From Candidatus Norongarragalina meridionalis (lineage in GTDB: Archaea > Micrarchaeota > Micrarchaeia > Norongarragalinales > Norongarragalinaceae), in assembly GCA_902384935.1 (NCBI GenBank), contig CABMDO010000007.1, forward strand, positions 1 to 37,452: a stretch of DNA of 37,452 nt. The letters are read 5' to 3'. This document shows, one piece after another, positions 2 to 4,720 of this stretch. Made by a program: the position numbers and the translations under genes. The stretch's first letter is position 1; each line of letters opens with the position of its first letter. The notes under the pieces are model-generated. The model ran no database searches. It was given only the letters and a program-made list of their open reading frames with translations, and was not told the origin of the DNA.

Positions 2-1585
2 GTTTATTTCCTTACCGCGCCTCTTTCCGGCTCGGACCAGAGCCTCCTGCTTCCCTCGTTCAGGAAAATCGCGTCGCTGAAGGCGAACAGGAACGAAGCT
101 AAGGCGATTCAGAAGAAGATTAACGATGCGATTAATCCGCCCATTACTTCCGAAATCTCAAATGCTATTGAAAAGGCGGTGGACGACGCCAAGAAGCAGA
201 TAGACACGCGCATCCTGAATCCGAACTACGACGCGGCGAAGGCCATAACCGAAGAGCCGATGCCGACGCCGTCCATCACGCCAACGCCGAACCCCGAAGA
301 CGACCTTAAGGCGGCGCTCGACGAACTCGCGGCAACTCTGCCGTCAACGCTGGAATTCAAACTTTCCGAAGCCGAGCCGCGCGACGATAAGGAATATCCG
401 CTCTCGCTCGACCCGAAGTTCGGCGACTTATTGCTTAAGGCGGAGGTTTCCGGCGATGCGAAGGCATACGTAAAGGCGACGATAAGCGGGCCTAACAACG
501 GCGAATATTCGCTGAAAATCAAAGCGGATGTCTCGAAAGCGAAGGGAACCGACGGACGCATAACGTTCGACTCGAAAATCGCCAGCGTTTCCGTGAAAAT
601 GGGCACCGCGGCGTATCCGCAGGCGAAGGAGAAGAAAACTACGGTGAAACTGACGATAACGCACGTGCTTCCCGCGGACGTGGACGTAGAACCGCCGGAG
701 ACATCCGCTTCGGAGCCTACTGATAAACAGCCGTCGACGTGGCTGCAATGCCCCGTAACCGGGCGCATATCTTCGGGATTCGGAGTCATGCGCAGCGACG
801 GCAAACACATGGGAGTTGACTGGGTTCCCGGAGCAGGCACTCCCGTCAAGGCGGCGGCTGCGGGAAAAGTTGTCAGGGCTTACACGGATCCTACCAACAC
901 CCATTCTACGAAATGCCCTAACTGCGGAACCGGCGCGCTGATAGAGCACTGGCTGTCGGACGGAAGCAGCGTATACACGCTGTACTGCCATTTCGAGGCG
1001 GGCTCGCTCACGGTGAAGGTGGACGACTACGTCGAGGCGGGACAGAGCATAGGCGCAGTTGGCGAAACCGGCTGCGCGGACGGCGCGCACCTGCATTTCG
1101 AAGTGATTGACGTCGAAAGCGGAAGGAAGCTGGATCCGACGCGCTACACGGGCTATTGCGACGGACGGCAGCAATATTCGGGATGGCACGAGAACGTCTA
1201 CGCCACGTATTTCGGATGCGGAAGCGACGCGCAGGACATGGCGAGCGGGATATATTCGACTTCGGCTACCAACTACGCCGCACTACCGGACGGATACGCG
1301 CTACGCAAGAAAATCGAGGTTAGGAACCCCGCCAACGGCAAGAGCGTCGTTCTGGACGTGCTGGACATCGGGCCGTTCTGCACGCTGGACTCCGATTACG
1401 TGATATACGGCAGCCGCCCGTTCGCGGAGAAAAATAAGGGCGTCGTGCTCGGCACGCTCGACAGGAGCTGCAACAGGAAATACAAAGCGCTCAACGGCGC
1501 GGGAATAGACCTGAGCTGCGACGCATCGGAGCAGCTGTTCGGCTCGAAGACGAACGGCCCCGTGGACTGGCGTTTCGTCGGCTGA
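2..1585 (+). CDS. M23 family metallopeptidase with C-terminal double-psi-barrel-like domain (5' truncated)
   Basis: The frame is open from the window's first base, so the start lies outside; the GTG at 179 is only an internal codon. After a helical, Lys-rich segment and a Pro/Thr linker (about 265-300) comes a beta-rich region, then an M23 (LytM-like) domain at about 740-1165. Its zinc-site motifs are visible: HxxxD (His at 806-808, Asp at 818-820) and HxH in HLHFE (His at 1088-1090 and 1094-1096). A CPNCG segment with two Cys (914-925) is inserted in the domain. The C-terminal part (about 1300-1582) has the pattern NGKSVVLDVLDIGPF followed by GIDLSCDASEQLFG, which resembles RlpA/3D-type double-psi barrels. 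M23 enzymes cleave peptide cross-links. In an archaeon the substrate could be pseudomurein-like peptide, host or bacterial wall, or a protein. M23 call strong, barrel call moderate. Confidence 0.85.
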   Translation, partial: VYFLTAPLSGSDQSLLLPSFRKIASLKANRNEAKAIQKKINDAINPPITSEISNAIEKAVDDAKKQIDTRILNPNYDAAKAITEEPMPTPSITPTPNPEDDLKAALDELAATLPSTLEFKLSEAEPRDDKEYPLSLDPKFGDLLLKAEVSGDAKAYVKATISGPNNGEYSLKIKADVSKAKGTDGRITFDSKIASVSVKMGTAAYPQAKEKKTTVKLTITHVLPADVDVEPPETSASEPTDKQPSTWLQCPVTGRISSGFGVMRSDGKHMGVDWVPGAGTPVKAAAAGKVVRAYTDPTNTHSTKCPNCGTGALIEHWLSDGSSVYTLYCHFEAGSLTVKVDDYVEAGQSIGAVGETGCADGAHLHFEVIDVESGRKLDPTRYTGYCDGRQQYSGWHENVYATYFGCGSDAQDMASGIYSTSATNYAALPDGYALRKKIEVRNPANGKSVVLDVLDIGPFCTLDSDYVIYGSRPFAEKNKGVVLGTLDRSCNRKYKALNGAGIDLSCDASEQLFGSKTNGPVDWRFVG

Positions 1586-1628: not shown

Positions 1629-1701
1629 GGACCCGTAGTCGAATGGCTAAGACGTCCCCTTTACACGGGGAAGACTCGGAGTTCGATTCTCCGCGGGTCC
1701 A
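1629..1701 (+). tRNA. tRNA-Val (anticodon UAC)
   Basis: A full cloverleaf is visible. The acceptor stem GGACCCG (1629-1635) pairs with CGGGTCC (1694-1700), and A1701 is the discriminator. The D stem is GTC/GAC. The anticodon stem TCCCC/GGGGA encloses the loop TTTACAC, giving anticodon TAC and reading GUA. The T arm CGGAG-TTCGATT-CTCCG is canonical. No intron is present and CCA is not encoded. The 3' half from the anticodon loop onward is also the antisense coding end of a homing endonuclease gene, and the last 23 nt have a degenerate copy at 2472-2494. The tRNA itself looks intact and functional. Confidence 0.95.
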
Positions 1702-2410
1702 TCCCGTATTTTTCGTGAATTAGCGGAATTTCTTTCACAAACGCATCACGAGACGATTGCCTCAAGCGCATTATTACCCGCCCGTATTCCTTTCCGTTTG
1801 CCCGCAAAACGTTGCTGGTTATTTTCCCGAATTCTATGCCGTAAAATTTAATCATTAATTTCTTAAGTTGTTCCAAAAAACTTTTGTTGCGAGCGCTCAG
1901 CATTATTCCGAACCGTTTCTCACTCTCGAAACCGTCCGTGTCAAACAAGCCCGCCACAAAAAACTTCAATAAACGCTTATTTTCCAACTGTGCAGGGATC
2001 GAAAGATTCTCTTTTCGCAAAGGCAGTCCGATTATTCGAGTCATGTAAAGCCAAACGATTTTATTATTCAGCTTCAACTCGAAACAGTTTTCGCCTTTCT
2101 TGGGATATATTGCGCTCGCTGCATTGAAGTTTTGCCTAAACAACGCGTTTATTTTCCTCAAATAATCGGTTGAAGCGTTGTATATCCTGACCGAGGTTAG
2201 CGGAAATGCAATGTTTTTTCTTGCGGTTAGAGAAATGCTTCCGTCGCCGGCTATCGCACCCGCCAAATAGGCGATTGACTCGTTGGGTTCGAGTGGTACG
2301 CTTATCCGATACTTTGAACGCTTCATCCCGCAGATGACGAAACCGGGAAGTTTGGTGATTTTTAAGTCCGAGATGATTTCCGGATCGTTTATAGCAGCTT
2401 CGATGTCCAC
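1661..2410 (-). CDS. LAGLIDADG homing endonuclease overlapping tRNA-Val
   Basis: The predicted protein is about 249 aa. Two LAGLIDADG-type motifs are clear: LAGAIAGDG at residues 49-57 and VAGLFDTDG at residues 152-160. Both carry the acidic residue expected at the two-metal active site, so this is a monomeric two-motif enzyme that should make a site-specific double-strand break. The stop codon (TAA, 1663-1661) lies in the anticodon loop of tRNA-Val, so the last 13 or so codons are read from the complement of the tRNA 3' half. The start is a GTG at 2410; the frame stays open upstream to about 2504, but that extension reads through the tRNA-like relic and is unlikely to be coding. The gene is clearly AT-richer than its neighbours, as expected for a recently acquired mobile gene. 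No intron or intein host is present, so it is free-standing. Confidence 0.85.
   Translation of the reverse strand: MDIEAAINDPEIISDLKITKLPGFVICGMKRSKYRISVPLEPNESIAYLAGAIAGDGSISLTARKNIAFPLTSVRIYNASTDYLRKINALFRQNFNAASAIYPKKGENCFELKLNNKIVWLYMTRIIGLPLRKENLSIPAQLENKRLLKFFVAGLFDTDGFESEKRFGIMLSARNKSFLEQLKKLMIKFYGIEFGKITSNVLRANGKEYGRVIMRLRQSSRDAFVKEIPLIHEKYGMDPRRIELRVFPV
1679..1701 (+). repeat. Direct repeat, tRNA copy (att-like)
   Basis: This is the T-loop and acceptor 3' strand of tRNA-Val. It matches 2472-2494 at 19 of 23 positions, and the core TCTCCGCGGG at 1688-1697 is identical. Together the copies bracket the homing endonuclease gene like attL and attR. Confidence 0.6.
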
Positions 2411-2445
2411 GCAATTAAAAACACTCGCCCGAATTAGGTTTTTTC

Positions 2446-2494
2446 GGGACGTGGTTTCCAGTAGGGCTAGTGAATTAGAGTCTCCGCGGGCCCA
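2446..2494 (+). pseudogene. tRNA relic / distal repeat beyond the homing endonuclease gene
   Basis: Bases 2472-2494 copy the last 23 nt of tRNA-Val with four mismatches, one being T to C in the acceptor strand. Upstream, GGGAC at 2446 and GGCTA at 2465-2469 echo the tRNA 5' half, but the anticodon arm is missing and no cloverleaf forms. It is read here as the displaced 3' end of an interrupted tRNA gene, or as a decayed second tRNA. The 3' repeat is seen directly; the 5' similarity is weak. Confidence 0.45.
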
Positions 2495-2503
2495 CTGCTC
2501 CTT

Positions 2504-4258
2504 TTAGTTTCCCACGAAGCTGCGAACCGTGCCGTCAAGCCTTTCCCCGTTCTGCAGGAAGTAGTAGTTGTCCGCCTCGAGCGTCGACGTCGGATTCACG
2601 CCGGGGCTGACTATCGTCAGCTTCTTCGAGGACGGCTTTCCGCTCTTGGCTGCGGGAATGTTGACGTAAGGCACGTGGCCAGAAACTCCGGTAGTTCCCG
2701 TTATCTCCGCATAGTCCCACTCGTCTACTCTGACCGCAACGGGCAGATAGTTCGTCAGCGTGACGTCCGCGGTTGTCCACACTTTTTTCTGGAGGTCGAA
2801 ATGAATCGACACCATCTTCGGCGTCATGCTAAGTGCCTCGTCCTGCGTGACGTGCGTGACGTCTACCGCCACGGAATACGTCGCAACTTCCTTTACCGCC
2901 TCGCTGGATGATAGTTTGACGAGCATTTCAGCGTGGTCGAAGTCCAGCAACCCGCCGCGGTAGTTCGTGTCCTTCGCGAAACTCACGTCGAGAATCACGG
3001 ATTTCTTGTCGGCGGAGTAGGAAACCGTCGGCGTGCCGACCCATTTTTCCTGGATGTTCGTCACGCTTACGCCCGCGGAAACGTAATTTACGAGATCTAT
3101 CTTCCCCGCGGCAGCTGCTGCCTTTAGCCCAGGCATATCGTCGGGAATTTCCAGCGTGAATCTCGCGGTTGGCGACAACTCGCCGATTCCTACTGTTTGC
3201 GCGGTTGCGCTGGAAGCGCCGTAACCCGTGATCAGCCTGGCTATCTCGATTTTCTTCGCTTCCAAATCGGCGAACCTGCCGAATATGTAGTTCTTGGTCT
3301 GGTGGTAGGTCTGAATCCGATCGGTGCGGAAATAGCTCGGATCCAAATCACCGAAAAGCACGTTCGCCATCGAATAAGCGGTTGTTTCGGAATCGACGTT
3401 TTTCACGAACGTGCCGCCGTTGCCGCCGGTTGTGCTGAACGCGAGCTCGGCATCCTTGAAGTCGAACTTGAACTTGGCGTCAACCGCCGAACCCGAAGAC
3501 GCAGCGTTATTGACGGTGAGCGATGAAAGAGTCACCGCCTCGCCCTTGAGTTCCGGAAGCGTGCTGACGCCTCCGAACTTGATAACAGTGCCCGGCTCCA
3601 ATAATACCGCGGTAGGCCCGCGCATGCCCGCGGTCGTGAGTTTCTTTGACAAGTCGCCCCTCTGCTGCTGCGTCATGCTGAATATCGGCATGTTTTCGCG
3701 AAGTTGCGGCACTATTTCGCTGTTAAGGAAGGCAAGCATGTCCTTGGACTCGTCTTCGGGAACCGTTATCAGGAGGTGCTCGGGTTCGCCGGTGCCCCTA
3801 AATTCTATGTCTATTGTCTTGGTAGTGTCGCTGGGCGAAAGATAGATTTTCGCGTCTTTGACTTCTACCACGGAAGTGTCCGCGAACCTGAGTTCGGAGA
3901 ACCCGTTCGCCTGCGGCTGGTCGAACAGCATGAAAATCAGGCTGAAATTCGCGCTCGAATTCCCGTAGTTCTTGCACGCGGTCCTAAGCCTGCCCAATCC
4001 GTTTTCAACCTTCACCGCCTGCGTGCAGTTTACCGGATTGCCGTCCGCCTCGAAGGAAATAGGCGCGTACGTCTTGTATATCGGCGCCGCGGTCGGGCTC
4101 GCTTGCGCGGTCGCGGTGGGAACGTAAGTCGGCTGCACTATGGCGGAACCTCCAGCGAGAGCCGCGGGCTTCTGGGATATGAAAACCAATCCTGCGACGA
4201 TTACGACGAAAACAAGAGCGACTCCGATCCACGTCCCGTAATTCCTCTTCAAGCGCAT
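2504..4258 (-). CDS. Membrane-anchored extracytoplasmic protein, unknown function
   Basis: The product is about 584 aa. A short basic N-terminus is followed by one membrane segment (about residues 10-29, WIGVALVFVVIVAGLVFI) and a Pro/Thr/Ala-rich stalk (PTYVPTATAQASPTAAP). The rest appears to be beta-rich extracellular sequence with no motif I recognise. Type II topology, with the bulk outside, is likely. Start choice: the ATG at 4258 is preferred over the adjacent GTG at 4261, since both sit about 26 bp from the TATA element at 4283-4295, giving an essentially leaderless message. It is divergent from the two-TM protein at 4325 and shares that promoter. The gene ends ten bases from the tRNA-like relic. 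Confidence 0.75.
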   Translation of the reverse strand: MRLKRNYGTWIGVALVFVVIVAGLVFISQKPAALAGGSAIVQPTYVPTATAQASPTAAPIYKTYAPISFEADGNPVNCTQAVKVENGLGRLRTACKNYGNSSANFSLIFMLFDQPQANGFSELRFADTSVVEVKDAKIYLSPSDTTKTIDIEFRGTGEPEHLLITVPEDESKDMLAFLNSEIVPQLRENMPIFSMTQQQRGDLSKKLTTAGMRGPTAVLLEPGTVIKFGGVSTLPELKGEAVTLSSLTVNNAASSGSAVDAKFKFDFKDAELAFSTTGGNGGTFVKNVDSETTAYSMANVLFGDLDPSYFRTDRIQTYHQTKNYIFGRFADLEAKKIEIARLITGYGASSATAQTVGIGELSPTARFTLEIPDDMPGLKAAAAAGKIDLVNYVSAGVSVTNIQEKWVGTPTVSYSADKKSVILDVSFAKDTNYRGGLLDFDHAEMLVKLSSSEAVKEVATYSVAVDVTHVTQDEALSMTPKMVSIHFDLQKKVWTTADVTLTNYLPVAVRVDEWDYAEITGTTGVSGHVPYVNIPAAKSGKPSSKKLTIVSPGVNPTSTLEADNYYFLQNGERLDGTVRSFVGN

Positions 4259-4282
4259 CACCGGAACGTACTTCGCCGCCGA

Positions 4283-4324: not shown

Positions 4325-4720
4325 ATGCACAAGATGCTCTGGCTCAAGATAGGCGGGAAGCGTTTCCACATGCTGAAGCTCGCGGGTTCCTTCTTCGTGC
4401 TCGCGTCCGTGCTGATGGTTGCGCAGTCCGCGTACAACATATTCCTCGTAGTCGACAAGATCAACGCGGCGCTCATGCGCCCCGAACTCACCGAGCAGCT
4501 GTTCGGCTGGGCGATCGGCGCGCCGTACGTCTTCACGAACGAGGACGTCCTCGGCGTATTGCTCGCGCCCATCGCGGGTTTCCTGTTCTGGCTGGGCATC
4601 GCGGTTCTCGCGCTCGTAGTTTACCAGTCGGGCAAGGTGATTCTGCCGGTAGAGGAATACGAGCAGCGCGTCTCCGAACACCACCGCAGGCTCATAGAGA
4701 GGGCGGTTCGTCGGAAGTAG
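4325..4720 (+). CDS. Small two-TM membrane protein, unknown function
   Basis: The product is 131 aa with two clear hydrophobic segments: FFVLASVLMVAQSAYNIFLVV near the N-terminus, and a longer one (LLAPIAGFLFWLGIAVLALVVY) in the second half. The C-terminus is basic and cytoplasmic-looking (EHHRRLIERAVRRK). ATG 4325 is chosen over the in-frame ATG at 4307 because GGTGA (4316-4320) precedes it and the predicted transcription start lies near 4318. I recognise no family. The next gene, uL16, has its own TATA box just after this stop. Confidence 0.7.
   Translation: MHKMLWLKIGGKRFHMLKLAGSFFVLASVLMVAQSAYNIFLVVDKINAALMRPELTEQLFGWAIGAPYVFTNEDVLGVLLAPIAGFLFWLGIAVLALVVYQSGKVILPVEEYEQRVSEHHRRLIERAVRRK

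Follow-up and report, generated by a model that had tools for sequence, protein, structure and literature searches.

A free-standing LAGLIDADG endonuclease gene running into tRNA-Val in a Micrarchaeota genome, and its probable place among tRNA-parasitic homing elements

The stretch of DNA analysed here (the window: all 37,452 nucleotides of contig CABMDO010000007.1 that were read) comes from a 927-kb metagenome-assembled genome (MAG) of the Micrarchaeota, Candidatus Norongarragalina meridionalis, and carries near its left end a complete tRNA-Val gene, a free-standing LAGLIDADG endonuclease gene that runs antisense into it and, beyond the endonuclease, a second copy of the tRNA 3' end (Table 1). 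This arrangement was first noticed in a reading of the sequence alone (the sequence-only reading below) and is confirmed: ARAGORN, the open reading frame (ORF) and Pfam agree that a two-motif LAGLIDADG gene enters tRNA-Val from the antisense side and stops in its anticodon loop. The ORF opens with GTG at 2410 and closes with TAA at 1663-1661 (tRNA nucleotides 33-35), and its C-terminus, ..KYG followed by MDPRRIELRVFPV and the stop, draws its 13 final codons from the complement of the tRNA-Val 3' half. The gene lies outside any intron or intein: the tRNA is uninterrupted and the ORF is not fused to a host protein. The interval from 1702 to 2471 is AT-rich, as had been claimed, with 44% GC vs. 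58% for the window.

Both LAGLIDADG motifs of the protein (LAGAIAGDG and VAGLFDTDG) are intact and retain their catalytic Asp residues, the protein scores 48.1 bits against Pfam LAGLIDADG_3 (cut-off 22.5), and in profile comparison the family profile matches I-DmoI, PI-PfuI and intein endonucleases; an AlphaFold model (two sequences) reached a pLDDT of 41, too low for a fold search. We infer that the gene encodes a LAGLIDADG homing endonuclease, with site-specific DNA cleavage as its predicted activity. A close homologue is present in a Candidatus Micrarchaeota MAG; no relatives of the protein were found in viral contigs, and no match in phage records. The window's own genome has a second such element (L194, G000:C15:6500-10500), in which the endonuclease gene ends 27 bp upstream of an intron-containing tRNA-Asn on the same strand.

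The recurrence of the last 23 nucleotides of the tRNA on the far side, at 19/23, also held up: none of 300 block shuffles of the downstream 1.5 kb reached that figure (maximum 16/23), and no other site in the window reached 18/23 (17 at most). Positions 2481-2497 (TCTCCGCGGGCCCACTG, the last 14 nucleotides of the copy plus the three flanking nucleotides CTG) are identical, 17/17, to the tRNA-Val tail and flank of G001, a genome of the same genus. CTG also lies 3' of tRNA-Val in G006 and G035, and the living tRNA-Val of the window is instead followed by TCC; the far-side copy therefore resembles the tRNA end that stood there originally, still followed by its own flanking bases. Between tRNA-Val and the copy the endonuclease is the sole ORF, and no site-specific recombinase is present there.

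Searching 60 relatives with the window protein alone returned rRNA introns, long frames (probable inteins) and free-standing genes, and 19 of the 21 evaluable free-standing genes, the window's included, had a 3'-side tRNA, recognised by Infernal or by eye. A second round, with a profile of 18 members run against 296 genomes, gave a table of 90 genes. Infernal placed a tRNA within -130 to +60 of the stop codon in 48 of the 90 (43 sense, 5 antisense), gene and tRNA overlapping in 37 of these with a mode of exactly 10 nt, which makes the stop codon tRNA nucleotides 8-10; within the same distance of the gene 5' end it placed none (0/90). At a density of about 45 tRNAs per Mb, one or two adjacencies would be expected by chance. 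ARAGORN missed intron-split tRNAs and was replaced by Infernal and reading by eye; with the intron-split tRNAs added, about 82 of 88 evaluable genes have a 3'-side tRNA, the exceptions being L150, L173, L174 and L229 (no tRNA), L141 (tRNA on the other side) and L142 (ambiguous). Most of the relatives lie in sense orientation at the 5' end of the tRNA; the 3' end used in the window is a minority target.

The endonucleases also sort by the tRNA on which they sit. With isoacceptor labels fixed before tree building, a tree of 83 proteins trimmed of their tRNA-derived C-termini (76 labelled rows, 18 states) required 23 isoacceptor changes, where 2000 label shuffles averaged 58.8 and never fell below 53. 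The clades of Ala-CGC, Val-UAC, Phe, Thr, His, Asn and Arg-UCG contain no other isoacceptor or almost none; Gln, Arg-CCU, Gly and iMet are each found in two or more clades. Within single clades (Val-UAC, Phe and iMet) both the side and the strand can flip, and sense or antisense orientation is not significantly bound to clade (8 changes, P = 0.07). On the evidence of the tree, this match is the outcome expected if the enzymes recognise the tRNA gene itself. The window's own subfamily (the window, G009, G030 and G094, from three families of the phylum) sits on tRNA-Val(UAC) in all four cases. G030 (L005/L094, with a broken reading frame) and G094 (L109/L136) share the window's antisense layout at the tRNA 3' end, the C-termini in this layout reading into the tRNA tail as KYG|MDP.., KYE|WARG.. 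and KYG|PARS*; in G009 (L035/L091) the endonuclease lies sense at the tRNA 5' end with an 18-nt overlap. The G009 and G030 tRNAs are intron-split, were spliced by eye to UAC, and are miscalled by ARAGORN.

In the sense class, insertion into a tRNA would be expected to leave a 5' head upstream of the endonuclease. Heads beginning at tRNA nucleotide 1 lie at L177, L178 and L148 (Ala) and at L207, L210 and L224 (Gly), and D-arm fragments at L203 and L205 (Gln). Fragment tests gave p<0.05 against mismatched pairs at 11 of 71 loci and p<0.01 against shuffles at 9 of 71, some of these low-p matches (L169, probably L221) being possibly neighbouring tRNAs or chance. Presence of the gene is patchy among close relatives, with empty sites at tRNA-Val, tRNA-Ala and tRNA-Gly loci; a search in the genus of G077 gave weak matches only. 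Three empty genomes of genus g40 read a small upstream protein, 16-28 bp and a complete tRNA-Ala, and two occupied genomes read the same protein, 13-20 bp, a tRNA head, the endonuclease and a complete tRNA-Ala; the third occupied genome, G048, has a longer gap (about 70-100 bp). We take the small protein to be rpoK, a label that comes from reading it, with no database call behind the name. In genus g115, G238 is collinear with two of three empty genomes through tRNA-Gly nucleotide 26 and breaks off at the insertion. Because the fragments start where the empty-site tRNAs start (g40), and collinearity breaks after nucleotide 26 (g115), these alignments place the insertion inside the tRNA gene, which is nevertheless complete.

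At the locus of the window itself, tRNA-Val lies without an endonuclease in G001-G004, G006, G010 and G035, and in most relatives it adjoins and diverges from the homologue of the conserved neighbour, with no endonuclease between them. Relative to G001, tRNA-Val in the window is in the opposite orientation between the same two anchors: the window layout equals a G001-like arrangement inverted between GGGCCCG / CGGGCCC ends, with the gene for a 585-aa protein in addition, so that the whole cassette of tRNA, endonuclease and copy is inverted relative to its conserved neighbours. The sequence-only reading had expected an empty site with tRNA-Val followed directly by the gene ending at 2504; none was seen, the 585-aa gene being missing from the locus in relatives and the cassette being inverted. 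That 585-aa protein has a single weak relative (28%, in G006 on a different contig) among the 60 relatives. When the left anchor is compared with its counterpart in G001 (L090 5150-6805), the N-terminal part is conserved (45%), the C-terminal part differs and the M23 peptidase domain is found only in the window, an apparent domain swap beside the tRNA locus.

Table 1. Features at the tRNA-Val locus, in window coordinates
Position	Strand	Feature	Basis or remark
2..1585	+	Left anchor, M23-peptidase gene; its G001 counterpart at the equivalent position matches the N-terminal part	Pfam, comparison
1629..1701	+	tRNA-Val, anticodon UAC (TAC); presumed target, still complete	ARAGORN
1661..2410	-	Free-standing two-motif LAGLIDADG (LAGLIDADG_3) endonuclease gene, 249 aa, GTG start	ORF, Pfam; N-terminus aligns with relatives
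1661..1701	.	Overlap of endonuclease 3' end and tRNA 3' half, 41 bp	Sequence
2472..2494	+	Far-side copy (stub) of tRNA-Val 3' end, 19/23; exact core 2481-2494	Sequence comparison
2504..4261	-	585-aa gene without Pfam match; context, outside the element	Pfam; absent from the locus in relatives
4325..4720	+	Conserved neighbour (MHKMLWLK.. protein), synteny anchor adjoining tRNA-Val in relatives	Comparison

We consider it probable, from comparison of these loci, that the window holds a tRNA-parasitic homing element belonging to a Micrarchaeota-wide set of free-standing LAGLIDADG_3 genes in which every clade is specific to a single tRNA gene, tRNA-Val(UAC) in this case. The enzyme would cut within a conserved arm of an unoccupied tRNA gene—the D-arm in the common sense class, the T-arm in the window's antisense class—and the break would be repaired from an occupied copy, the far-side fragment and the tRNA body serving as the two homology arms. 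Repair would thereby bring in both the endonuclease gene and a substitute for the tRNA end that was cut off, leaving the order severed fragment, endonuclease, complete tRNA, and the restored tRNA would resist further cutting; in the window, an inversion between the GGGCCCG-type ends of the cassette would have come later, and the fragment would have decayed. The endonuclease 3' end is flush with the tRNA, usually running into it, and selfish gene and essential tRNA are therefore hard to separate. Paired changes in living tRNAs suggest such resistance: the window has A3-U70 where most relatives have G3-C70 (G003, without the gene, also has A3-U70), and G097 has A10-U25 where G095 and G099 have G10-C25.

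The sequence-only reading was right in essence and is partly supported in its interpretation. A free-standing LAGLIDADG gene with a tRNA-restoring habit finds support in the fragment, endonuclease and complete tRNA of relatives across the phylum and in their empty sites, whereas the 3' end, on which that proposal was built, is the less used target; "integrase-like" stands for the tRNA-restoring habit as an analogy only, because no integrase is present.

Several points weigh against this interpretation. A relative with both repeats and no endonuclease had been named in advance as an observation that would tell against it, and the nearest relative, G001, has exactly this: a perfect 20-nt copy of the tRNA-Val tail, 243 bp from the tRNA, with no endonuclease (L090 6838-7154). 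Neither an endonuclease remnant nor coding homology was found in the 220-221-bp interval of G001, and the copy there could be explained by endonuclease loss after insertion. Within the window's subfamily, no far-side copy was detected in G009, G030 or G094 (the G094 contig ends soon after the gene), and across the phylum a fragment is detectable in only about 11 of 71 loci. The idea that stubs are always nearer the empty allele than the living tRNA end is was tested, with mixed results: the fragment is closer to empty-site tRNAs in G238 and, for two of three, in G048, partly so in G097, in the window only over the last 14 nt, and not closer in G245. Some of the seeds of the second-round profile were themselves tRNA-adjacent genes, which makes the 19/21 of the first scan the less biased figure, and several isoacceptor labels depend on by-eye splicing of intron-split tRNAs.

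One alternative is that the enzymes cut elsewhere, at intergenic sites or random breaks, and persist by tRNAs as harmless sites, the fragments being chance matches or unrelated duplications. Free-standing homing genes are indeed said to be generally, or largely, limited to intergenic targets (PMC13405050, a recent preprint), and most loci have no fragment; but a clade/isoacceptor match far above chance, many independent cases of 3' ends that lie flush with the tRNA (to within about 10 bp) and fragments lying exactly at empty-site tRNA starts make this account unlikely. We give still less credence to the remnant of a conventional integrative element, in which integration of the SSV or phage type at tRNA-Val left att repeats and the endonuclease is a passenger. 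Repeats running from the T-loop to the 3' end are typical att sites, and the G001 copy without an endonuclease fits such an origin; yet there is only one gene in the interval and it is not an integrase, the 5' end of the tRNA is the site used by most relatives, and a single endonuclease family shows this arrangement at some 18 isoacceptor classes. Least credible is that these proteins are splicing helpers (maturases) for adjacent intron-rich tRNAs, as some LAGLIDADG proteins are elsewhere and as the several introns in many adjacent tRNAs might suggest, given that the targets include Ala-CGC and several Gly, Thr, Val and Gln tRNAs that are intronless, that the genes are patchy among close relatives and that the catalytic Asp residues are retained.

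Occupied tRNA genes often carry several introns at unusual positions, in the D-arm and T-arm, that standard tRNA finders miss (L188, L196, L149, L151, L203 and others). One endonuclease of this family, at L162 (G021:C21), sits between the two exons of a tRNA-Thr, its N-terminus reading through the 5' exon; it is the sole member that is a tRNA-intron-encoded homing gene. Upstream of the endonuclease, L162 shares the motif GGCAAGCCAC(CCTCCCG) with L187 and L193, both in G011. Other RNA genes are neighbours as well: the 5' end of one endonuclease gene lies 37 bp from RNase P RNA (L190 2385-2605) and another gene lies close to SRP RNA (L212 1108-1366), each with a tRNA also at its 3' end, and in G007:C45 (L163) two endonuclease genes follow the 23S rRNA gene immediately beyond its 3' end, the start of one coinciding with the last base of the rRNA gene. 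L195 (G086) has two tandem tail-like copies of the tRNA-Phe 3' end, one of them degenerate, at the endonuclease 3' end.

A wider proposition, which we advance tentatively as a possibility, is that a diverse guild of homing endonucleases, each specific to an isoacceptor, lives on the tRNA genes of Micrarchaeota, entering the gene and reconstructing it with a changed end. Such a guild would drive change in tRNA sequences (for example, paired substitutions in the acceptor stem or D-stem), local inversion and perhaps the gain of introns, and its own expression would be limited by RNase P, which would remove the stop codon from the message. If the family does enter and rebuild essential tRNA genes, these would offer it a third safe niche in addition to introns and inteins, and the family might be one of the forces driving tRNA rearrangement and intron richness in these archaea; the isoacceptor-matched clades would offer ready pairs of enzyme and target, candidates for new meganuclease specificities.

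No report of tRNA-flush LAGLIDADG genes in archaea was found in the open literature, which leaves subscription papers uncovered, but parts of the arrangement have known counterparts. Archaeal integrases of the SSV type target a tRNA gene, restore its end and leave a repeat, as here; they are recombinases that move large elements, whereas the element in the window carries no integrase. LAGLIDADG_3 endonucleases, of the same protein family and in the same hosts, are known from archaeal rRNA introns, Micrarchaeota included (PMC6125680), but those of rRNA introns and inteins are hidden in elements that remove themselves, and the tRNA-associated genes lie outside the tRNA, except at L162. Phage T4 SegB is likewise a free-standing homing gene in a tRNA region that drives its own inheritance; it is of another enzyme family (GIY-YIG), sits in a phage tRNA cluster and has its insertion and target between tRNA genes, and the portions of the SegB accounts consulted report no end duplication (PMC2988022, PMC13096335). 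The closest precedent is the mobile endonuclease ORFs (mORFs) of fungal mitochondria, e.g., in Allomyces atp6 and Glomus atp6, cox2 and nad3, whose endonuclease has been demonstrated biochemically (PMC3630166). There, too, a free-standing gene (LAGLIDADG or GIY-YIG) sits at the end of a host gene and brings a replacement end, the old end being duplicated on the far side (PMC3630166); the mORF targets are organelle protein genes, whereas here they are archaeal tRNA genes, at either end, with clades specific to the isoacceptor.
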